A stretch of 64,000 nt of DNA from Halobacillus ihumii. Its GTDB lineage: Bacteria; Bacillota; Bacilli; Bacillales; Halobacillaceae. The stretch spans positions 1,364,001 to 1,428,000 of the forward strand of contig NZ_CACVAO010000001.1 in assembly GCF_902726645.1 (NCBI RefSeq), written 5' to 3'. Below the pieces are notes generated by a model. That model saw only the letters and a list, made by a program, of their open reading frames with translations. It was not told where the DNA came from and ran no database searches. Both the position numbers and the translations under genes were made by a program. Each line of letters starts with the position of its first letter. Within the stretch, counting starts at the first letter, position 1. Below are positions 3,730 through 58,346 of this stretch, in pieces.

Positions 3730-4689
3730 ATGAATGATATAACGAAAATACTGAACGTGGACCTTCCTTTTATTCAGGGAGGAATGGGGAATATTAGTCA
3801 TGCCTCTCTGGCCGTCGCTGTCTCTGAAGCCGGCGGGTTAGGCACGATTGGTGCTGGCACATTAGCTCCTGAAAAAGTTGAGCAGATGATCTTGGACATC
3901 CGCCGCGAAACGTCAAAGCCATTTGCCGTCAACATCCCTCTCGCCGTCCAGCCTTACGTCAAAGACATTCTCTCTCTGATCAAAAAACATCAAGTACCTG
4001 TAGTCGCTTTATCCGCAGGCAACCCTGCCCCCTATATTGAGCCGTTGAGGGCTGAAAACGTTGTCGTCATGTGTGTCGTCGCGAATGAAAAGCAAGCCCG
4101 AAAAGCCGAAGCGGCAGGAGCCGACATCGTGATAGCGGAAGGGTATGAAGCAGCAGGTATTAATGCAAAAGAAGAACTCACCACGTTCACATTACTCCCG
4201 AAAGTCACTGCATCCGTTAATATTCCCGTCGTAGCCGCCGGCGGCATCGGTGATGGACGCGGAGTGCTGGCCGCACTGAGTTTAGGCGCACAAGGCGTCC
4301 AATTAGGCACACGGCTCATCGCAACCAAAGATGCCCAGGTACATCCAGCTTATAAGGAAGCCTTATGCTCGGCCGGGTCTGATGGAACCATGATCGTCGG
4401 GCGACCTTATCAGCAAGTACGAAGAATATTAAAAACACCTTATGGCCAGCACTTACTTGATTCCGAAAAAGAAAAAATACCTCTTGAATCTTACTTAGAA
4501 AAGACCGACGAGTCCCGTCATATCCTGGGCGCAATCGAAGGCAAACTAAACGAAGGTCACGTCAATGCAGGACAAATATCTGCGATGATTGAGGACATCC
4601 CAACTGTCCAGGAACTTTTCACAAGAATGATCCAGGAAGCACAAAGCAAATTAAAAGATATTTCATTACCTGCCCACAGCCAGAAATAA
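3730..4689 (+). CDS. Nitronate monooxygenase / enoyl-ACP reductase II-like flavoprotein
   Basis: The 319-residue protein is an FMN-binding TIM barrel of the 2-nitropropane dioxygenase/FabK family: it begins with LPFIQGGMGNISHASLA, has GGLGTIGAGTL, VVAAGGIGDGRG and GAQGVQLGTRL, the usual phosphate-binding elements. The segment that normally reads EGxEAGGHxG, carrying the family's catalytic histidine, here reads EGYEAAGINAKEE and lacks histidine. The exact substrate is therefore open. Position within the phenylacetate block suggests a flavin reductase or oxidase role in aromatic acid breakdown (inference). A GGAGGTG ribosome binding site precedes the ATG, and a good terminator follows. Confidence 0.8.
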   Translation: MNDITKILNVDLPFIQGGMGNISHASLAVAVSEAGGLGTIGAGTLAPEKVEQMILDIRRETSKPFAVNIPLAVQPYVKDILSLIKKHQVPVVALSAGNPAPYIEPLRAENVVVMCVVANEKQARKAEAAGADIVIAEGYEAAGINAKEELTTFTLLPKVTASVNIPVVAAGGIGDGRGVLAALSLGAQGVQLGTRLIATKDAQVHPAYKEALCSAGSDGTMIVGRPYQQVRRILKTPYGQHLLDSEKEKIPLESYLEKTDESRHILGAIEGKLNEGHVNAGQISAMIEDIPTVQELFTRMIQEAQSKLKDISLPAHSQK

Positions 4690-4690
4690 A

Positions 4691-4728
4691 GTAAAGCGGA
4701 TACCGAAAAGGTATTCGCTTCTTTTTTT
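4691..4728 (+). terminator. Rho-independent terminator after the flavoprotein gene
   Basis: The stem AAGCGGATACC / GGTATTCGCTT encloses a GAAAA loop and is followed by CTTTTTTT, immediately after the stop codon. Confidence 0.88.
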
Positions 4729-4792: not shown

Positions 4793-4917
4793 TTGCTCCC
4801 TAATGCGGACTGATAACGCCCTAACTCCCAATAATAGCGCCCTATCTCAAAATATAACTCCCTAATGCAATGGCATAACGACTTAACGAACAAGTATACC
4901 GCCCTAACTAAAAACCT
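4793..4917. repeat. Degenerate 21-bp intergenic tandem array, family A
   Basis: Six units starting near 4793, 4814, 4835, 4855, 4876 and 4897 share the core CGCCCTAACTC or CTCCCTAATGC. Spacings are 21, 21, 20, 21 and 21 bp. It lies in a 440-bp gap with no credible gene, between a terminator and the promoter of the 5139 operon. Confidence 0.7.
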
Positions 4918-7410: not shown

Positions 7411-7860
7411 TTGAAATCTGTAATCAATGAAAGCGAGCTACACCATCGCTACAAAACCGAAATCGTTGCAACAATGGAGAACGAACCTTACGCTCAATTT
7501 CTAGGAATTAGATTAGTAGATATCGAGGAAGGAACGGCTCTGGCCGAACTGGATATCCAGGACCACATGCTAAACGCACACGAAACCGTTCATGGAGCCA
7601 TTACATTCGCTATTGCGGATTATGTCTTTGCAGCAGCCTCCAACTCTTACGGAAAAACGGCTGTCGGCATATCTACTACCATGAACTATATGGCCGCCGG
7701 AGAAAAAGGAGCACAACTCCGCGCAACAGCTATTGAGGAAAAGAAAAATCATAGAATGGCCTGGTATAAAGTAAACGTCGAAAGTGACGGTGTGTTAATC
7801 GCTACAATGGAAGCGGTAGCTTACCGTAAAAATCATTATTTTGTTCCTGTAGAAGAATAA
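7411..7860 (+). CDS. paaI: PaaI-family acyl-CoA thioesterase
   Basis: The 149-residue hotdog thioesterase has the PaaI signature HGAITFAIADYVFAAASNSYG, whose AD pair places the catalytic aspartate of PaaI. In phenylacetate degradation PaaI rescues CoA from ring-hydroxylated phenylacetyl-CoA intermediates that stall. The start is a TTG at 7411, justified by GGGAGGAAC 8 nt upstream and by the lack of a better in-frame ATG. It is the last gene of the operon and is followed by a hairpin. Confidence 0.85.
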   Translation: MKSVINESELHHRYKTEIVATMENEPYAQFLGIRLVDIEEGTALAELDIQDHMLNAHETVHGAITFAIADYVFAAASNSYGKTAVGISTTMNYMAAGEKGAQLRATAIEEKKNHRMAWYKVNVESDGVLIATMEAVAYRKNHYFVPVEE

Positions 7861-7864
7861 GAGC

Positions 7865-7912
7865 ATGCAGATGGGCGCCATCTATTGGAAGTAGATGAGT
7901 GCCCTTCTGCAT
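7865..7912 (+). terminator. Hairpin after the paaI operon
   Basis: ATGCAG at 7865-7870 pairs with CTGCAT at 7907-7912, and inner arms GGGC...ATCTA / TAGAT...GCCC extend the stem. There is no strong T-tract, so termination may be partial. Confidence 0.55.
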
Positions 7913-7915
7913 TGG

Positions 7916-8035
7916 TGTACAACGCTCCAATTTAGGCTATTTTCGCTCATGATTTTTATAAAAAGCTCATCTTTCGTTCAGTTCGCTCACCTTCTAATCC
8001 GTTTCGCTCACTTTCAACCCAATTACGCTCGCGAC
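7916..8035. repeat. Phased GCTC array B1 (near-identical to 14177-14290)
   Basis: GCTC cores start at 7924, 7945, 7965, 7985, 8006 and 8027, with spacings of 21, 20, 20, 21 and 21 bp. The typical unit reads TTTCGCTCACTTTCAA. The first ~100 bp is almost identical to the array at 14177, so the two are dispersed copies of one element. Confidence 0.85.
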
Positions 8036-14088: not shown

Positions 14089-14140
14089 GGCATTATCAAA
14101 GCAGTTTCCTTTACGGGACATGCTATGATAATGCCTTTTT
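14089..14140 (+). terminator. Terminator of the rbs operon
   Basis: GGCATTATCA at 14089-14098 pairs with TGATAATGCC at 14126-14135, with a 27-nt loop, and TTTTT follows. Confidence 0.8.
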
Positions 14141-14176
14141 CATTTAGCAGCTTCTTGGAAAGCGTAAGTTGTGAAG

Positions 14177-14290
14177 TGTACAACGCTCCAATATAGGCTA
14201 TTTTCGCTCATAATTTTTATAAAAAGCTCATCTTTCGTTAAGTTCGCTCACCTACTAATCCGTTTCGCTCACTTTCAAGTCATTTACGCT
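14177..14290. repeat. Phased GCTC array B2
   Basis: GCTC cores start at 14185, 14206, 14226, 14246, 14267 and 14288, with spacings of 21, 20, 20, 21 and 21 bp. The sequence is nearly the same as array B1 at 7916. It sits between the rbs terminator and the convergent symporter gene. Confidence 0.85.
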
Positions 14291-14363
14291 CCACCTCCCC
14301 CACTTCTTCTAAGGAAACAACAGCATCTTTCATTGAAAAATTACCAGCGGCCATCCTCCTGTT

Positions 14364-18597: not shown

Positions 18598-19399
18598 TGT
18601 GTCTCACCTCTAATTAGAAGTTGATAGCTAATGATATCGATGGGCGATATTCTCAATACAACAATTTCTATCTATAAGAACGAAATATAATTTCACCTAT
18701 TTGTTCAGAATTTACCTGAAATCTACGTAAAGCCATATAGTTCGCTATTCTATCACTTCTATTTTCCCTTCATTGTAGCACAAAGTCCCACATCCATTTA
18801 ACAATCTAGGATATCGATCCATGAAAGGAACAACTAAGGAAATAAAACACATCCTTACTTCTTTTGAAAAATATGAATGTTCCCAAGCAACGGTTCTGAG
18901 ACCCTTTTGGGGCTTTGTTTGATTTGATCGCAGCGTCTGCCGTCGAAGGATGTTGAAATAGATATTTCCCGGGAAATTATCATAATTTCTAAGAGAAATA
19001 TGTCAAAAAGACGACTGACAATGAAGCTCAGACGCTTTTTACACGAACATAGTTTATTAGGCGGCCCCATTTATTTATCATAGTGTTGATGAACGACCCG
19101 GCGTGAATTTATATTACGTTATAAATAAGCGAAATAAGCGTTATAGCTCATCTCAAGTCTGTTTTCGCTCATATTTTTCATAATAAGCTCGCTTTTCTTC
19201 CGTATCGCTCCCCTCCCTATCCATTTCGCTCACTTCCAAGCCATTTACGCTCGCCGTCTCCGTCATGGTAGTTATCGAAGCATCCAACAGAAAGCTTGCC
19301 ATACTATTCCGTAACCACACAAACCTTTAGTAACCATACATACCTCCCCGACGATTGGATAATCTAAATTTAAAACAGTTTTAACCAAGGCGGGGTCAC
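18598..19399. other. 800-bp intergenic region without a credible gene
   Basis: It holds the likely kinase promoter region, a perfect palindrome ATTTCCCGGGAAAT at 18964-18977, and the phased GCTC array at 19142-19260. The minus-strand frame at 18855-19070 has no ribosome binding site or recognisable domain and is not called. Confidence 0.6.
19142..19260. repeat. Phased GCTC array B3
   Basis: GCTC cores start at 19146, 19167, 19187, 19207, 19228 and 19249. Spacings of 21, 20, 20, 21 and 21 bp are exactly those of B1 and B2 although the unit sequences have diverged, for example TTTCGCTCACTTCCAAGCC. Confidence 0.85.
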
Positions 19400-21519: not shown

Positions 21520-21796
21520 AACAATAATAAAACCCTCACTCCTCTCTCCTCATTCTCTACTAACTAAAACTATAGAACCATAGCTTTAAGTTGGATTGGT
21601 CACAGTATTGTAACAATATTCTGCAAAACGTAACATATCTCTCCATAAAATTAATTCTAATAAACTAGTTTAGGAGGAAATAAAAGGATTTATTGGAAAT
21701 GTATACTGAATGAGGGGTACTTTTTCATTTGGCGTGAAGGGGTACTTTAAGCACATAAAGCGACCTGTTGACTCCTTAGGGAAAAGTCTTCGTCTT

Positions 21797-22284
21797 GAAG
21801 GGCCAAATCTTTGCCGCGAAGGGAAGAATCACTGGCTTGAAAGGCCGAACTCTTGCCTCGTAGGGAAGAATCACTGGCTTGAAAGGCCGAACTCTTGCCT
21901 CGAAGGGGAGAATCACCGCCCTGAAAGGCCGAACCCTGGCCTCGAAGGGGAGAATCACCGCCTTGAAAGGCCGAACTCTTGCCAGGTAGGGCAGAACCTT
22001 CGCCTTGAAAGGCCGAACTCTTGCCACGAAGGGCAGAACCTTCGCCTTGAAAGGCCGAATACTTATCACAAAGGGAAATACTCGCCGTGAACGGCTGAAT
22101 CCTTTGCCAATCGCCACCAAGAAAGATTCCTCGTCTTTAAGGGGCGAACATTTGCTCCGAAAGGGAGAACCTTCACCTTGAAGGGTCGAACCCTTGTCGC
22201 AAAGGGGAGAACTACCGCCTTGAAAGGCCGAATCCTTGCCGCGAAGGGGATAATCACTGCGTTGAAGGGTCGAATCCCTAAAGT
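21797..22284. repeat. 21-bp tandem repeat block, family C
   Basis: About 22 units of a 21-bp repeat with consensus GAAAGGCCGAACTCTTGCCTC fill this stretch. Units 1-13 (21797-22069) hold perfect 21-bp phase, then there is one 20-bp unit, a ~27-bp irregular patch at 22111-22137, and seven more phased units. Two unit types alternate (GCCGAACTCTTGCC and GGGAGAATCACCGCC), giving a 42-bp higher-order period. Because 21 is a multiple of three, all frames stay open and produce long repetitive frames on both strands. None has a convincing ribosome binding site or domain. Confidence 0.85.
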
Positions 22285-42521: not shown

Positions 42522-42640
42522 TGCATAACGCTCACAATAACATCATTCCCGCTCCCAATCTAACTACGCTCGCTATTTTCATTTTTCGCTCCGATCCTAA
42601 CTATTTCGCTCACTTCCACGCCATTTCCGCTCGCCCTCTC
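42522..42640. repeat. Phased GCTC array B4
   Basis: GCTC cores start at 42530, 42551, 42568, 42588, 42608 and 42629. Spacings are 21, 17, 20, 20 and 21 bp, so one internal step is out of phase. Unit sequences resemble B3 (TTTCGCTCACTTCCACGCC). Confidence 0.75.
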
Positions 42641-42719: not shown

Positions 42720-42762
42720 AAAAAAAGCTACCGGCCTGCAAAATAACAGACCAATAGCCTCA
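42720..42762 (-). terminator. Terminator of the amino-acid ABC operon
   Basis: Minus-strand GGCTATTGGTCTG pairs with GCAGGCCGGTAGC (wobble pairs included) and is followed by seven T residues, just after the ATPase stop codon. Confidence 0.8.
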
Positions 42763-42769
42763 TACATCA

Positions 42770-43492
42770 TCACAATATTTTATTCAGAAATTCCTTCGTC
42801 CGCTCCGATTCAGGATTGTTAAAAATCTGTTCCGGATCGCCTTCCTCCATGATAATTCCTTCATCCATAAAGAGGACTCGATCCCCAACTTCTTTGGCAA
42901 ATCCCATTTCGTGCGTCACGACGACCATCGTCATCCCTTCATAGGCGAGCTGTTTCATAACCGCTAAAACTTCACCAACAAGCTCTGGGTCCAGCGCAGA
43001 GGTTGGTTCATCAAACAACATGACCTTAGGCTCCATGGCAAGGGCACGAGCAATGGCCACACGTTGCTGCTGTCCGCCTGATAATTGATTGGGATACATG
43101 TCAGCTTTTTCACTCAGACCGACCTTATCCAGTAACTTCTGTGCACGCTCCTTTGCTTCTCCTTTACTAATACCACGCGCTTTTTGTGGGGCAAGCATGA
43201 CATTTTCAATTACGGATTTATGCGGGAACAGATTAAACTGCTGAAACACCATTCCCACTTCTTTTCGAACTTCATTAATATTTGTCTTCGGATCATTTAA
43301 ACTTGCACCATCTACCACAACATCACCGCTTGTAATTTCTTCAAGCAGGTTTAAACACCTTAAAAATGTACTCTTTCCGGATCCACTCGGGCCGATTACA
43401 CAAACCACTTCTTTTTGTTCAACCTTGCAATCAATACCCTTTAGGACCTTTGTCTTTCCGAAACTCTTATGCAGTTGTTCAACTGTTATCAT
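42770..43492 (-). CDS. Polar amino-acid ABC transporter ATP-binding protein
   Basis: The 240-residue ATPase has Walker [10 protein letters not shown] (32-40), Q-loop [12 protein letters not shown], signature [15 protein letters not shown] and Walker [20 protein letters not shown], a GlnQ/HisP-class subunit. It powers import of glutamine, glutamate or cystine with the two upstream genes. Its ATG overlaps the permease stop by one base. Confidence 0.93.
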
Positions 43493-45299: not shown

Positions 45300-45522
45300 G
45301 AACGAACGCTCACGATAACCCATTTTCCGCTCACAACTTGAGCACTTGCGCTCGCTAGTTCTGTTTTACGCTCCGTTCCAGCTATTTCTGCTCACCTCCA
45401 CCGCCATTTCGCTCACCCCCGCAAAACCGGCAGTTAGACACACGCATCATTGAGGAAAATAACACCTCCTCAAAAACGCAAAAAGCCACTGCGCTTCTTT
45501 GCTCAAAAAGAAACGCAGTCGC
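45300..45522. repeat. Composite intergenic element, copy 1 (GCTC array B5 plus hairpin)
   Basis: GCTC cores start at 45308, 45329, 45350, 45370, 45390 and 45411 (spacings 21, 21, 20, 20, 21). The array is followed by CCCCGCAAAACCGGCAGTT...ACACACGCATCATTGAG (45416-45454) and a hairpin at 45484-45522, GCCACTGCGCTTCTTT paired with AAGAAACGCAGTCGC. The same order of parts recurs at 51144, and the last two parts recur at 46461. Confidence 0.8.
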
Positions 45523-51143: not shown

Positions 51144-51337
51144 GAACGAACGCTCACGATAACACATTTTTCGCTCACAGCTTGAGCACATGCGCTCACC
51201 ATTTTTGATTTACGCTCCGTTCCAGCTATTTTCGCTCACCTCCACCCCCATTTCGCTCGCCCCCGCAAAACCGGCAGTTAGACACACGCATCATTGAGCA
51301 AAAAAAACACCGCGCTTCATAAAGAAGCACGATGGCT
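51144..51337. repeat. Composite intergenic element, copy 3 (GCTC array B6 plus hairpin/terminator)
   Basis: GCTC cores start at 51152, 51173, 51194, 51214, 51234 and 51255 (21, 21, 20, 20, 21), identical to copy 1. The CCCCGCAAAACCGGCAGTT...ACACACGCATCATTGAG core follows (51260-51298). The hairpin GTGCTTC/GAAGCGC at about 51308-51337 is followed on the minus strand by eight T residues and acts as terminator of the YfcC gene. Confidence 0.8.
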
Positions 51338-51346
51338 TATATACAC

Positions 51347-52777
51347 CTAGTAATTCGGTCCCCAGCCAATCAACACCCCGATCGCCAAGAACACCATCGA
51401 CAACACATACCACATCACGATTAACGGCAGCATGAACCGTACCCACTTCGTCCACGGCACCCCGCCAATCGCAAGACAAGCTAACAGCACACCAGACGCC
51501 GGCGTAATACTGTTCATAAAGCCATCTGACAATTGATACGCCGTCACCGCCACCTGGCGAGGAACTTCCATCAGGTCCGCTAATGGTGTTAGGATCGGCA
51601 TCATCACGACGGCGTTCCCGCTCCCAGACGATACGAGCAAGGCGAACAACGAATTCCCGATAAACATGGCAATCGCCCCGAACACGGAGGAGAAGGGTTC
51701 CATCGCCACGGCCAGCCAGTGGACGATTGTATCGAGGATCTCCCCGTTCTGCATAACGAGCACAATGGCCCTGGCTAGTCCGATAATTAATGCGCCATAG
51801 ACGAGATTCTTCGCGCCGCCCATGAATTCTTTGACCACAAAGTTCGGCGACATTTTAGCAATCAGCCCGGTTCCAACTGTGATAATGAGAAAAATGGCTG
51901 CCATGTGATTAAGTGACCAGCCGAATTGCAGCGCACCCACGATGTAAAATACAATCGCTAACACGACAAAGGACAGAATCAGTTTATGCGTGCCGGTAAA
52001 TTTCTGCTGCACATCCTCACTCACTTGCTCATCGTCTTTTGGAAAACGATTGGCCCCCATCAGACTCTTCGTCGGATCATTCTTCACACGCTTAATGTAC
52101 CAAAGAATATAACCAATCGTAACGGCAAAAATCACCACGGTCATAATACATCTGAACAGGATGCCGGAGTACAACGGAAGTCCGGCGATGTCCTGAGCAA
52201 TCAGCACGGTGAATGGACTCATAAACGACGTGTTAAATCCGACATACGCGGTTAATTTAATGATCGCCACACCAGCGATCGCGTCTAAATCGAGCGCCTT
52301 CGCGAGGACGATCCCGATTGGAATAAAGGCAATGACAGCATTGGAGATCGCGCCGGTCAACCCGCCAATCGCAAGCAGCACCCCAACGAACAGGACAAGT
52401 AAATGTTCGCGATTTTTCGTTTTATTTACGGCCTTCATAATCGAAGCATTGATGGCCCCGGTCGATTCGATAACAGCAAAGGTTCCCCCGATAATTAAAA
52501 CTAAGAAAATGATTCCAGCTGTCTCGACCATGCCATTTTGAATCGATAAAAAGAAGTCCATAATTCCAGTTGGATCTCCATCGACACTATGAAAGCTGTC
52601 TGGAACGACTACCGTAATATCTCCCTGCTCCACTCGTTCAAATGCCCCCGATGGCAAGATGTACGTGGCCACCGCCGCAAGCAGCATAATCAGCAGCATG
52701 ATGATATAGGCGTCAGGCATCGCCCACTTTTTCTTCTGTTTCGGAGCGGAATGGCGCTCCCTTTGTTGTATCGCCAT
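51347..52777 (-). CDS. YfcC-family (C4-dicarboxylate/short-chain-fatty-acid-like) transporter
   Basis: The 476-residue membrane protein has about 12 helices and the YfcC/DcuC family segments LPSGAFERVEQGD, AFIPIGIVLAKALDLD, GSGNAVVMMPILTPLADLM and QLSDGFMNSITPASGVLLACLAIGG (in part). The substrate is uncertain; peptides, N-acyl amino acids or arginine/ornithine-type solutes are suggested because an M20 amidohydrolase and an RpiR regulator are divergently encoded. ATG 52777 has AAGGAGG 10 nt upstream. Confidence 0.83.
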   Translation of the reverse strand: MAIQQRERHSAPKQKKKWAMPDAYIIMLLIMLLAAVATYILPSGAFERVEQGDITVVVPDSFHSVDGDPTGIMDFFLSIQNGMVETAGIIFLVLIIGGTFAVIESTGAINASIMKAVNKTKNREHLLVLFVGVLLAIGGLTGAISNAVIAFIPIGIVLAKALDLDAIAGVAIIKLTAYVGFNTSFMSPFTVLIAQDIAGLPLYSGILFRCIMTVVIFAVTIGYILWYIKRVKNDPTKSLMGANRFPKDDEQVSEDVQQKFTGTHKLILSFVVLAIVFYIVGALQFGWSLNHMAAIFLIITVGTGLIAKMSPNFVVKEFMGGAKNLVYGALIIGLARAIVLVMQNGEILDTIVHWLAVAMEPFSSVFGAIAMFIGNSLFALLVSSGSGNAVVMMPILTPLADLMEVPRQVAVTAYQLSDGFMNSITPASGVLLACLAIGGVPWTKWVRFMLPLIVMWYVLSMVFLAIGVLIGWGPNY

Positions 52778-52910
52778 GTGTAAACTTCCTCCTTTGTTAA
52801 AATTGAATAAATATTGTGACAACTAATAAGTTATGATAGATTATAATAAAGTATTTCTTTTAAATCAATATCATTTTAAAAATTATCTTTTATTTTCAGG
52901 AGGAAGCTTT

Positions 52911-55089: not shown

Positions 55090-56631
55090 TTATTCAAGAA
55101 TTTTAATTACTTTTTCAACATCAATTTCGATTCCTAAATCCTTTGTTTTTGAAATTACAAAATTGATATAGCTTTTATATCTGGTCATAAAATCATTTTG
55201 AGCAATAATTAATAACCTTTCTTCCGGTCTAGATATTGCAACGTAATGCAAGAATTTTATCCCTTCTCTAGTCAAGTCATAATCTTGGGCATTTATTATT
55301 ACCTGTTCAAACTCAAGACCTTTAGATGAATGGATTGTACCAGAAGTTAATTTGTAACGGTCTTGATTGTAAGTAGGTGTATATTTCTGGTCATTTACTA
55401 CTTCATGTAATACACTTATCTCTCCATTTATTTTATCCAAGTCTTCACTATAACCTAGGTAATTGTACAAAGTAATACAGTTTTCTTTAAATTGATTCTG
55501 GTCGTTAAGTGTATCATTAATTTCTTTTAATAACATTTTGATATCAGAAATTCTGTATACTTCAGGCATCGGTATTTCATCCCTAAAGTCATACTCACTA
55601 TATCTATACTGGAATATATAATGAGCTATAGCTCTTGCTATCCATATGTGCTCGCTCTCAAGATTAGCATAATCTAAAGGTGACCCGGGAATGAAGACGA
55701 ACGGAAGACCAGATTCACTTAATCGATTACTCCACTTCTCTGCATTATCATTTCTAAAATTCAAGAAGGCACATTTTTTACTAACATCAATCCATTCATT
55801 TATATAAGCAATAGCTTCACTATCAATACCGAACTTAAAAGCGATTACTTCATTATTAAATTCAGTTTGATGATAATGCTTTCTTACACTCTCCATAAAT
55901 ATATTTGAATAATTTTGAATAACTTTGTTTGACCTGAAATTATGCCATAACTCGAATTCTTTGAAAGTTTGTTTGGTAAATAACTCAGTGAACCCATCAC
56001 TATAAGCTCCTCTCCAACCATATATAGACTGTTTAGAATCACCAACAATAAACAAAGGAATTTCGAGTTCATCGGATAAATACATAAAAAATTTGTGCAT
56101 ATCTTCGTCACTATCTTGGTACTCATCAATATAAACCCGATAATACTTTGCTTTCATATATCTTCTCGCAGAATGGGAATTCTTTAAAATTTCTAAAGCC
56201 AATTGGAATGCAAAATTTTTCTTTCTATCACGGTACTTACACATTAATTTCGTGTTCTTAATCTTATCTATACCATCATTAAAAGTTTTAACTTGGTTCT
56301 CATCACTAAAGTCTGGTTTAATTTCTATCCTGAAATCCATGCCGTAGACATCGTACATAAATGGTTGAATTACCTCTAACCAAATGAAATTATCGTTTGT
56401 TCCTACAAACCCCTCTCCCTTATTAGGGCCAAGTCTATTTATAATCTCCTTTGCTGCTTTTCGTGTGAAAGTTACAGCTGCAAATGTTTGATAGTTATTA
56501 ATCTCTTCTACATCTTTAATAATTCTTTTTATAGTAGTGTATGTTTTTCCAGTCCCTGCACTAGCGCTTATTACAATATTACCTTCAGTAGTGAGAATTT
56601 TGTCCCTAATATCTTTATCTACTGGCAACAT
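55090..56631 (-). CDS. gajB: Gabija protein B, UvrD-like helicase/NTPase
   Basis: The 513-residue SF1 helicase has Walker A SASAGTGKT (22-30), Walker B YIDEYQDSD, motif III GDSKQSIYGWRG, motif V TIHSSKGLEFE and motif VI YVAISRPEERLL. Gabija GajB uses these in nucleotide sensing and phage response together with GajA. Its ATG at 56631 overlaps the gajA stop by 13 nt, so the longer frame to 56655 is not preferred. The B. cereus founder GajB is about 494 residues, close to this size. Confidence 0.9.
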   Translation of the reverse strand: MLPVDKDIRDKILTTEGNIVISASAGTGKTYTTIKRIIKDVEEINNYQTFAAVTFTRKAAKEIINRLGPNKGEGFVGTNDNFIWLEVIQPFMYDVYGMDFRIEIKPDFSDENQVKTFNDGIDKIKNTKLMCKYRDRKKNFAFQLALEILKNSHSARRYMKAKYYRVYIDEYQDSDEDMHKFFMYLSDELEIPLFIVGDSKQSIYGWRGAYSDGFTELFTKQTFKEFELWHNFRSNKVIQNYSNIFMESVRKHYHQTEFNNEVIAFKFGIDSEAIAYINEWIDVSKKCAFLNFRNDNAEKWSNRLSESGLPFVFIPGSPLDYANLESEHIWIARAIAHYIFQYRYSEYDFRDEIPMPEVYRISDIKMLLKEINDTLNDQNQFKENCITLYNYLGYSEDLDKINGEISVLHEVVNDQKYTPTYNQDRYKLTSGTIHSSKGLEFEQVIINAQDYDLTREGIKFLHYVAISRPEERLLIIAQNDFMTRYKSYINFVISKTKDLGIEIDVEKVIKILE

Positions 56632-58346
56632 ATTTCCACCAGCTCTCTCAAACATTCAAATCTCTTATGTTTATAAATCTTATCTATACCGTATTGAGTA
56701 ATACTGGTACTTAATTCAATCATATTAATAAGTTTTGCGCTTTGTAAATAATCCACACCATTTTTTGAGCTGTTTTGATCCTTAGCTAGCCTGTCCAGAA
56801 TTCTTGGAATTACTTCATACAAATCATTTTCTAAATCAACTCTGGAAAGAAAAATATTCTCGACTTTTAATTGCTCAACTACTTCAGATAATTCACTAAA
56901 TACAAATTTTTTCCTCTCAACTTTATAGCTTGAATCTTTTTCATATCTTGTAGGGTCAATACCTCTTAAATTATTTTGTTCTGTTTCACCAATAAGCCTT
57001 TGACATCTGTTTACACCGATAAGACTACACTCTGGTCTTCCGTTAATTTTTTTAAGATCATTATCAGTTTTCACTATCACTTTGATTCCAAGTGCAGTCA
57101 ATACCGAATAGTATTCCTTAAAATTAATACCATCTACTTCTAGAATATAACCTCCAAAACTCTCATACCGTTCACACTTGTCTTTTAGTATTCGTTCAAA
57201 CAGTATCTTTTCGGACGGTCCCTCAACGAGCAAAACTACATCCGCGTAAATTGCTTCCGCTAGATTTTGATTTAGTTTTTGCTTTAATGTTTTATACATT
57301 TCTGGAACTCTATAGATGAAAGATTTCCCTACAACTGTAGCATCCTTAAATAGCTTGATCAGGTTAACATCATCCATTTGACTTACAATTAGTGATGAAT
57401 GTGTTGTCATAAATAGATGCTTAAAAATCTCATCAGAGAAAATCTGATACGATAACGCTATCTGCATTGACCTATGTAAATGATTTTCTAGTTCTTCAAT
57501 TAAAAATATATTGATTTTTCTTTCTTCTAGCCTACGGTTCTCAAGCGTAAAAAGTGTATAAGCAAGAATCTTCTTTCTACCATCTCCGGAAGTTGGATAG
57601 TTTTCACTTTTTTCATCTTGAATATATGGCGTGAGTTTGCTGTGAATATTACTTAATTCAATTTCAGATTGGATAGACACATTAAAATTTTTTTCATCTT
57701 TAAATTTCTTATATTCACTTACCAGTGCTTTTTCAAATTCCTTTATCGTGCTCAACCTACCTACACTACTATTAAGCTTTTTTATATCCTTGCTAAGTCC
57801 TTTTCTTTCCTTTTCACTTAAACTTGACTCACCTTTTAAAATCTCTTTAGAATATCTTTTGAATGTACTCTCTAGTTGAATTGACGAATCAATGTAAACT
57901 ACATTAATGTACTTATCTAGCTCATAGTATGACTGACTACTTGGAACTTCCTCCAAATCCTGTAAGTCAGCACCCCAAAAGAGATTCGGCTCTCCTACAA
58001 GGGATTCACCATCATACACAGATTTAAGTTGTATGTAAATTTCATCAGCACCTGTAGGTATAGCACCACTCATCATTGTATAAATCTTTTTACTATCATT
58101 ATTCTCTTCATCATCAATCTTAATTTTAAGGGTTATTACAATTTCCCTTCTAGTGTCTTTATTGTAAAAATCGGAGTCCACAAACCCGTTTTTTCTGAAA
58201 TTTCTATCTAGTAGGAAACGTATAGCAGCTAGGAAATTACTCTTACCAATATCATTGAGGCCAAAGACGATATTGCGATTAGTTAAATCAATATCCACAT
58301 TTTCAAAGTTCCTGAAGTTTTGAATAGCCAAATGTTTAAGGATCAT
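56619..58346 (-). CDS. gajA: Gabija protein A, OLD-family nuclease with Toprim domain
   Basis: The 575-residue nuclease has an N-terminal ABC ATPase (Walker A FGLNDIGKSN, 28-37; SGDGRKK, 253-259; Walker B FLIEELE, 281-287; TTH 314-316) and a C-terminal Toprim domain with VEGPSEK (374-380) and KTDNDLKK (426-433). Sequence pattern and length match GajA of Bacillus cereus (578 residues as I recall it). It is a sequence-specific DNA-nicking endonuclease that is kept inactive by nucleotides and unleashed when phage depletes them. An AAGGGGG ribosome binding site precedes the ATG. Confidence 0.92.
   Translation of the reverse strand: MILKHLAIQNFRNFENVDIDLTNRNIVFGLNDIGKSNFLAAIRFLLDRNFRKNGFVDSDFYNKDTRREIVITLKIKIDDEENNDSKKIYTMMSGAIPTGADEIYIQLKSVYDGESLVGEPNLFWGADLQDLEEVPSSQSYYELDKYINVVYIDSSIQLESTFKRYSKEILKGESSLSEKERKGLSKDIKKLNSSVGRLSTIKEFEKALVSEYKKFKDEKNFNVSIQSEIELSNIHSKLTPYIQDEKSENYPTSGDGRKKILAYTLFTLENRRLEERKINIFLIEELENHLHRSMQIALSYQIFSDEIFKHLFMTTHSSLIVSQMDDVNLIKLFKDATVVGKSFIYRVPEMYKTLKQKLNQNLAEAIYADVVLLVEGPSEKILFERILKDKCERYESFGGYILEVDGINFKEYYSVLTALGIKVIVKTDNDLKKINGRPECSLIGVNRCQRLIGETEQNNLRGIDPTRYEKDSSYKVERKKFVFSELSEVVEQLKVENIFLSRVDLENDLYEVIPRILDRLAKDQNSSKNGVDYLQSAKLINMIELSTSITQYGIDKIYKHKRFECLRELVEICCQ

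Follow-up and report, generated by a model that had tools for sequence, protein, structure and literature searches.

The 64,000-nucleotide stretch of Halobacillus ihumii DNA analysed here (the window) carries dispersed intergenic arrays of short, directly repeated core units. These and the related arrays compared with them share a phase of 20 to 21 bp and a usual count of six units, the core word is set element by element, Fictibacillus arrays follow a constant leader, terminators are frequent in the neighborhood, and the array can be replaced at a conserved site. From these features we infer a function and a protein, and tentatively, with a probability of about 0.42, read each array as a protein scaffold between transcription units, with several sites held in phase on probably curved DNA, that is spread and exchanged as a whole cassette.

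A chain search of the whole window recovered six intergenic GCTC arrays of six cores each (hexads), all on the + strand, exactly as the first-pass annotation had claimed. The hexad at 7915..8030 begins with GTGTACAAC and has its cores at 7924, 7945, 7965, 7985, 8006, and 8027; the one at 14176..14291 is a copy of it, and the alignment of the two spans GTGTACAAC to the last GCTC and stops there, so that both ends are sharp. The remaining hexads are located at 19146..19252 (in a divergent gap), 42530..42632, 45308..45414, and 51152..51258, the last of which has the sequence past its final core in common with the 45.3-kb copy. As had been reported, the spacing order 21-20-20-21-21 is common to the arrays starting at 7924, 14185, and 19146 and the order 21-21-20-20-21 to those at 45308 and 51152, and the sole 17-bp step (at 42551) belongs to the array at 42530 (order 21-17-20-20-21). 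On the − strand of the 64-kb window, no GCTC chain of three or more cores was found. GCTC and CGCT gave the top two 4-mer/lag signals of the window, with 17 pairs of GCTC at lag 21 versus a mean of 1.85 over lags 6 to 59 and 16 pairs of CGCT at the same lag versus a mean of 1.5. TTTC was most frequent in the four bases before the window cores (12/36), followed by TTAC (5/36). Tandem Repeats Finder (TRF) called 0/6 of the GCTC hexads.

The hexads sit in gaps between long frames, and a coding origin was ruled out because their mixed 20- and 21-bp steps disrupt the reading frame. Spacer identity was 52% for same-rank units of different window hexads, 30% for units of different ranks, and 33% for units within one array. 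The greater likeness of same-rank spacers (52% versus 30%) indicates that the window arrays descend from whole arrays that were copied in register and then drifted. Recent slippage would make the units of an array alike, and since units within an array are barely alike (33% versus 30%), slippage is a poor fit for the hexads. The earlier view that the hexads are neither coding nor the product of simple slippage is thus upheld. The same annotation had taken the identical spacing orders as a sign of constraint; the phase is indeed kept on drifted sequence, but the orders are not independent of each other and partly reflect copying, as the 52% same-rank identity indicates. That all copies are recent duplicates with no independent divergence does not match what is seen.

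In a scan free of any fixed core, the 26 intergenic segments of the window, delimited by simple open-frame calls, were searched for chains of at least five 9-base words with 6/9 bases alike. Such chains were present at steps of 20/21 in 7/26 segments, and none was obtained in these segments at step pairs within 14 to 30 lacking both 20 and 21 or, at the four step pairs tried, in five shuffles. The 42.5-kb array is absent from the seven segments because of its 17-bp step. Two features had been overlooked in the first-pass annotation. One is a seventh hexad (4796..4908, + strand) with core C(T/G)CCCTAA, one degenerate unit, and steps 21-21-20-21-21, of which TRF calls just 2.6 units; all seven window hexads are thus on the + strand. 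The other is a long satellite (21794..22274, no strand assigned) whose 42-bp unit consists of two 21-bp halves with another core, in the same period class as the hexads. This satellite is made of GAAGGG/GAAC-type words and keeps open a + strand frame (21710-22090) with a 14-residue repeat. When the six GCTC hexads were removed, the lag test detected no excess at lags 20 and 21 in the rest of the window, which shows this test to be insensitive to single elements.

A 5-core GCTC scan of a genome collection returned at least 119 stretches, with 66 Bacillales among the matches listed. In the stretches read from Fictibacillus sp. BK138 (G004; the source of L077), at least 17 short arrays of the window type were present, in addition to homogeneous 20-bp satellites. 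Aligning same-site arrays of different species revealed an unexpected constant part, the leader, which comprises ~35 bp with few changes and reads TT(T/C)ACGGTACGTGTTC, then an A/T-rich stretch, then TTACACGTTC. The leader directly precedes 48/61 GCTC arrays of 4 to 9 cores in G004, G008, and ten Fictibacillus loci, a count that omits chains of more than nine cores; of the remaining 13, 12 are pieces of homogeneous satellites at nine places, and in the last the leader is degraded. The exact leader pattern was found in 15/34 family genomes, at 1 to 41 copies each (reversed control, 0), and inexact copies in a wider match list reach further genomes. No such leader was found in the six window flanks aligned, and the link between the window and Fictibacillus therefore rests on the design of the unit. 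In 874 pairs of within-genome matches, the central half of the left ends fell between −5 and −7. Where a match extended beyond the leader, its right end was mostly located at +136 to +143, but half of the pairs stopped by +59. In five genomes with few exact leaders (G011, G014, G015, G016, and G018), a leader lies at about equal distance from the contig end (L208 and contig positions 8.5 to 10.3 kb); at L208, the array is of the ACC(T/G) type, and a SAM riboswitch and a T-box lie close to it.

Forty stretches chosen by the leader yielded 42 leader-anchored elements, in which units were scored with a hand-set profile that favors TTTC and CRC and allows steps of 17 to 24. Steps between good units were 20 or 21 bp in 166/176 cases (31 and 135, respectively), compared with an even distribution in shuffles, in which 20/21 made up ~22% of the steps. 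Five or more good units were present in 38/42 elements but also in 242/840 shuffles, so the step distribution, and not the unit count, constitutes the evidence. The commonest core per element (n = 38) was GCTC in 20, ACGC in 6, ACCC in 4, GCCC in 3, GCCG in 2, and one of three others in 1 each, a tally in which GCTC is under-counted because the stretches from G007 and G008 were those outside existing GCTC lists. Tetramers matched in 57% of pairs within an element and in 23% between elements; the core is thus mostly uniform per element. TTTC immediately precedes the core in all four larger Fictibacillus core classes, which is partly built in by the profile; the TTTC count of the window is independent of it. 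In a few leader-anchored elements, the number of GCTC cores is not six but one, four, or seven. At L201, L227, and L226, the array beside the leader retains a single unit or is missing altogether, as though core-core recombination had deleted it. GCTC, which the first-pass annotation had made the defining mark and which was built into our first scan, was abandoned as such once the leader-anchored elements showed other cores.

Twenty-two pairs served to assess the exchange of arrays, orthology being assumed where 200 bp or more of flank matched; some pairs were one-sided or shared members, and the totals exclude flanks with fewer than 60 aligned bases or more than 45% divergence. Substitutions per bp amounted to 0.044 in the leader, 0.323 in the array, and 0.22 to 0.25 in the flanks. 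Indels per substitution were only mildly rarer in arrays (0.039) than in flanks (0.07 to 0.08), and replaced arrays align badly. Complete reading of four pairs showed arrays whose cores differ at an unchanged step, next to a matching leader and one or two matching flanks. At the L214 locus, compared in 30 genomes, leader plus hexad is present in 13, a leaderless 20-bp GCTC satellite occupies the site in G012, and the other 16 are leaderless. Cores at this locus are ACGC in G007 and G004, GCTC in G008, G019, and G013, a 21-bp GCTC form in G017, G018, G020, and G015, and ACC(T/G)G in G010, G011, G014, and G016. The core word can change at one site, and leader, count, and phase stay. By eye, other 20- to 21-bp phased words (ATAATTCCA, TTATTATCGAA, and TTTAT(G/T)TTCA) are seen at the same site in leaderless G022, G027, and G028. 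Satellites, too, occupy corresponding sites in G004, G008, and G016, their units having changed. Homogeneous 20-bp satellites at L188, L153, and L156 start or end with an inverted-core hairpin (GCTCGT.. / ..ACGAGC) that replaces the leader.

At 17 leaderless loci, 54 intergenic segments of 17 relatives were picked by gene and not by repeats. Chains of at least four units at steps of 20/21 were present in 8/54 segments, five of them at the comparable site, and chains at step pairs lacking 20 and 21 in 0/54. Most of the eight chains have different words, and two look alike. The proposal that the two-turn phase persists through sequence drift is therefore borne out by both the leader-anchored elements (166/176 steps) and the gene-anchored segments (8/54), and spacing kept on a changing word seems to mean that the spacing itself matters. 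In intergenic DNA with GCTC arrays and leader elements masked, lags 20 and 21 were within the top three (z = 4.9 and 7.7 in Fictibacillus; z = 5.1 and 8.6 at other Bacillales loci, which came from the GCTC scan and in which degenerate units beyond the mask may feed the signal). The top lags of non-Bacillales loci found and masked likewise were 21, 39, and 18, all divisible by three, the pattern expected of coding DNA. Across 14 genomes, the best match to the window reached 68% over 1.08 kb. A unit pair of the window type, at most three mismatches being allowed, was found in 1/299 genomes of one order; a plasmid collection gave a single weak 37-base match, within ftsY, and viral contigs gave five stretches with the 5-core pattern. 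GCTC arrays of 20 to 21 bp were also seen in other phyla (L004, L009, and L112, from a Spirochaetes MAG, Emticicia, and a Myxococcales MAG), and some of these may be coding.

Terminator-like hairpins called by a scan adjoin four window hexads. The one next to the 4.8-kb hexad is on the + strand (4694..4720), between that hexad and the gene at 3730-4689. The other three are on the − strand: 42724..42761 (the hairpin of gene 42770-43492 [−], with the hexad starting ~93 nt beyond), 45488..45519 (~71 nt from the 45.3-kb hexad), and 51308..51334 (the hairpin of gene 51347-52822 [−], ~49 nt from the 51.2-kb hexad). The 7.9- and 14.2-kb hexads adjoin + strand hairpins detected by folding only. One is a strong hairpin that lacks a T run and separates gene 7411-7860 from the 7.9-kb hexad (7864..7914; fold z = −5.9; not a terminator by the scan), and the other is a hairpin followed by a T run between an rbsB-like gene and the 14.2-kb hexad (14089..14135; stretch z = −3.0; not called by the scan). 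The 19.1-kb hexad, in its divergent gap, is without an adjoining terminator-like hairpin. As the hairpins lie on both strands and the cores always on the + strand, the gene does not set the strand of the array in the window. Elsewhere in the window (55090-58346, − strand), a UvrD/RecB-like helicase gene adjoins a RecF/MAD3-like ATPase gene, possibly a defense pair.

In G004, G008, and G016, terminators were present on the GAGC-sense side in 27/60 arrays by our own scoring, compared with 12/60 for opposite-sense terminators on that side, 9 and 13 on the other side, and 3.4 in shuffles. In other Bacillales, no side preference was observed (20/58 and 26/58 on the two array sides). For 65 arrays located outside long open frames, of which the window supplied five (the 42.5-kb array was missed), the gene 3′ of GCTC is directed toward the array in 42 cases and away from it in 12. 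A fixed orientation to genes was dropped, since the window divides 3 to 3 and tandem cases alone give 15 versus 8. The check for a linked conserved gene that the first-pass annotation had suggested returned, beside 79 leaders, no recurring gene except frames in repeats and ABC transporters.

Judged from dnaA and skew, with computed binomials, the arrays of a given family tend to lie on the same strand with respect to replication. GCTC is on the lagging-type strand in 14/14 satellites of G016 by position (13/14 by local skew) and, among the matches listed, in 21/25 of G004; in G008, the leader sense is on that strand in 24/29 leaders, with the terminus taken as the antipode. In G003, polarity goes by family, the GCTCA(A/T) type lying one way in 10/10 and the GCTCGAG type the opposite way in 5/6. 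In G002, among the matches listed, one family lies the same way in 6/6 and a second, with matches at 678, 679, and 850 kb, is on the other strand. The + strand of the window, which bears all seven hexads, has negative GC skew, i.e., is C-rich, from 16 to 64 kb. These polarities would be expected if a fork- or segregation-linked machine read the arrays on one strand as a replication-strand signal. Nevertheless, we consider such a signal improbable: the GCTC-bearing strand varies by family and genus, and GCTC itself is therefore not the signal; 67 mixed loci have no common skew sign (only 30 are negative in the array sense); at one comparable site, two species carry GCTC on opposite strands; and gene strand is confounded with polarity. 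The scaffold reading does not account for polarity relative to replication, which was counted against it, and because polarity in G003 goes by family, the replication-strand explanation was rated up and the scaffold slightly down.

It is rather unlikely that the arrays are neutral tandem satellites, generated by replication slippage where 3′ intergenic DNA safely accommodates 20- to 21-bp repeats and drifting with age, so that the period would reflect the slippage machinery and not a function. Long homogeneous 20-bp satellites do occur in the same genomes, and G012 has one where relatives carry a hexad; unit sequence changes between species at five compared sites, and gene ends often have arrays nearby. 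A neutral origin nevertheless sits poorly with window hexad units that are barely alike outside the core, with the recurrence of the leader and the usual count of six, and with the same step in arrays of unrelated cores. It is likewise unlikely that the leader and the array end are the ends of a non-autonomous mobile element (MITE- or REP-like) used by an in-trans transposase, with the phasing as part of a transpososome. The dispersed copies, their sharp ends, and the 1 to 41 exact leader copies in 15/34 family genomes would suit such an element; many copies, however, are old and occupy the same sites across several species, and the array is swapped while leader and flank remain. An RNA transcribed from the arrays in which GCUC or GAGC recurs, be it a small RNA or a protein sponge in a 3′ UTR, would agree with the closeness of arrays to gene ends, and the accessible text of PMC8161180 puts such an idea forward for its repeats, but for the present arrays we regard it as very improbable. 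The strand of the window arrays is not tied to the gene, helix-turn spacing is without evident reason in RNA, and structure was no higher than in shuffles: on folding 27/79 elements on both strands, the mean z was −0.40 and −0.61, with 2 and 4 elements below −2. Rfam gave no family on the window elements at gathering score and none in seven loci tested. A structured RNA was rejected on the fold z near shuffles in these 27 elements and on this Rfam result.

AA/TT phasing near 10.25 bp was marked (window, z = 5.4; Fictibacillus, z = 16.9) and stronger than that at 20.5 bp (z = 4.1 and 5.2, respectively); curved DNA with the cores on one face is plausible, and the TTTC before the cores contributes to this phasing. 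The bend element or one-face protein array suggested by the first-pass annotation thus fits the phasing, but no protein was found; overall, its interpretation is partly supported. In the scaffold that we favor, each array would be one copy of a fixed-size intergenic element of about six short core units, the unit often being TTTC plus an element-specific word (GCTC, GCCC, ACCC, or ACGC), and the 20- to 21-bp spacing would place the cores on one side of the helix. A protein complex would recognize the leader or its equivalent, and putative subunits would line the phased cores on the AA/TT-phased, probably curved DNA, so that a wrapped or bridged nucleoprotein patch would separate neighboring transcription units. 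Copies would spread and swap as whole cassettes, the core word would turn over with a changing set of readers, and selection would keep leader, count, and phase; the published 20- to 21-nt Bacillus repeats would be the same element in homogeneous and expanded form. Core exchange implies several readers, a reader of loose specificity, or a reader of repetition itself. The demand for several or loosely specific readers counts against the scaffold, as does the lack of a recurring gene beside the 79 leaders. It is quite improbable that the reader senses repetition in register and not a fixed sequence, in which case the leader would mark the site and about six copies of whatever short word, set two turns apart, would suffice. 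If that were true, elements with the same word would carry an address and could find each other, either by direct recognition of homology between helices or with the help of paralogous readers that form a family, and the chromosome would be organized by word class.

Plasmid centromeres and iterons consist of ~20-bp direct repeats in helical register that are bound by a protein polymer. They are likewise phased direct repeats and offer a possible model of action, but they occur at a single locus beside their own par or rep genes, whereas here dozens of chromosomal sites are occupied and no linked gene recurs. REP/BIME elements are similarly dispersed beyond gene ends; their units, however, are palindromic, in contrast to the phased direct cores described here. 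CRISPR arrays have identical repeats of ~24 to 48 bp, unique spacers, and cas genes; such an array was ruled out by the short common part and the 20- to 21-bp period, and no Cas protein was present among 20 of the window proteins that were scanned.

According to the accessible text of PMC3532100, STAR elements of staphylococci resemble the present elements in being interspersed intergenic direct repeats, with a start sequence before 1 to 6 motifs at one locus and locus-specific spacers, but they have a single 14-bp GC-rich motif, T(G/A/T)TGTTG(G/T)GGCCC(C/A), and spacers of at least 40 bp. A STAR element was ruled out, the window unit being 20 to 21 bp in all. The first-pass annotation knew of no described family; the accessible text of Subirana and Messeguer (2021; PMC8161180), however, already reports non-coding 20- to 21-nt tandem repeats of constant size and variable sequence in Bacillus, in several families per genome, in which short characteristic words are kept. 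That text remarks on the period as two turns and suggests a polymerizing protein or small RNAs. The likeness extends to period, non-coding location, constant size with variable sequence, and at least four repeats (six here). As far as that text goes, the class comprises at least four regular tandem units found by a repeat program (SATFIND), a regularity that the GCTC hexads, uncalled by TRF, lack; the elements here are dispersed, drifted, and mostly of six units, and they differ in their Fictibacillus leader, cores that vary within a genome, array replacement, and frequent terminator neighborhood. The constant-size class is thus already known, and the dispersed, drifted, mostly six-unit element is new here; no account of a leader-plus-hexad element was found in the parts of the open-access literature searched.

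The pairing of constant size with free sequence, until now a statistical curiosity, becomes an element whose ends, leader, and usual count are defined and whose core is exchangeable; within one family, many species carry it at corresponding sites. This allows direct tests of what holds the two-turn register and provides bait for the putative reader protein.
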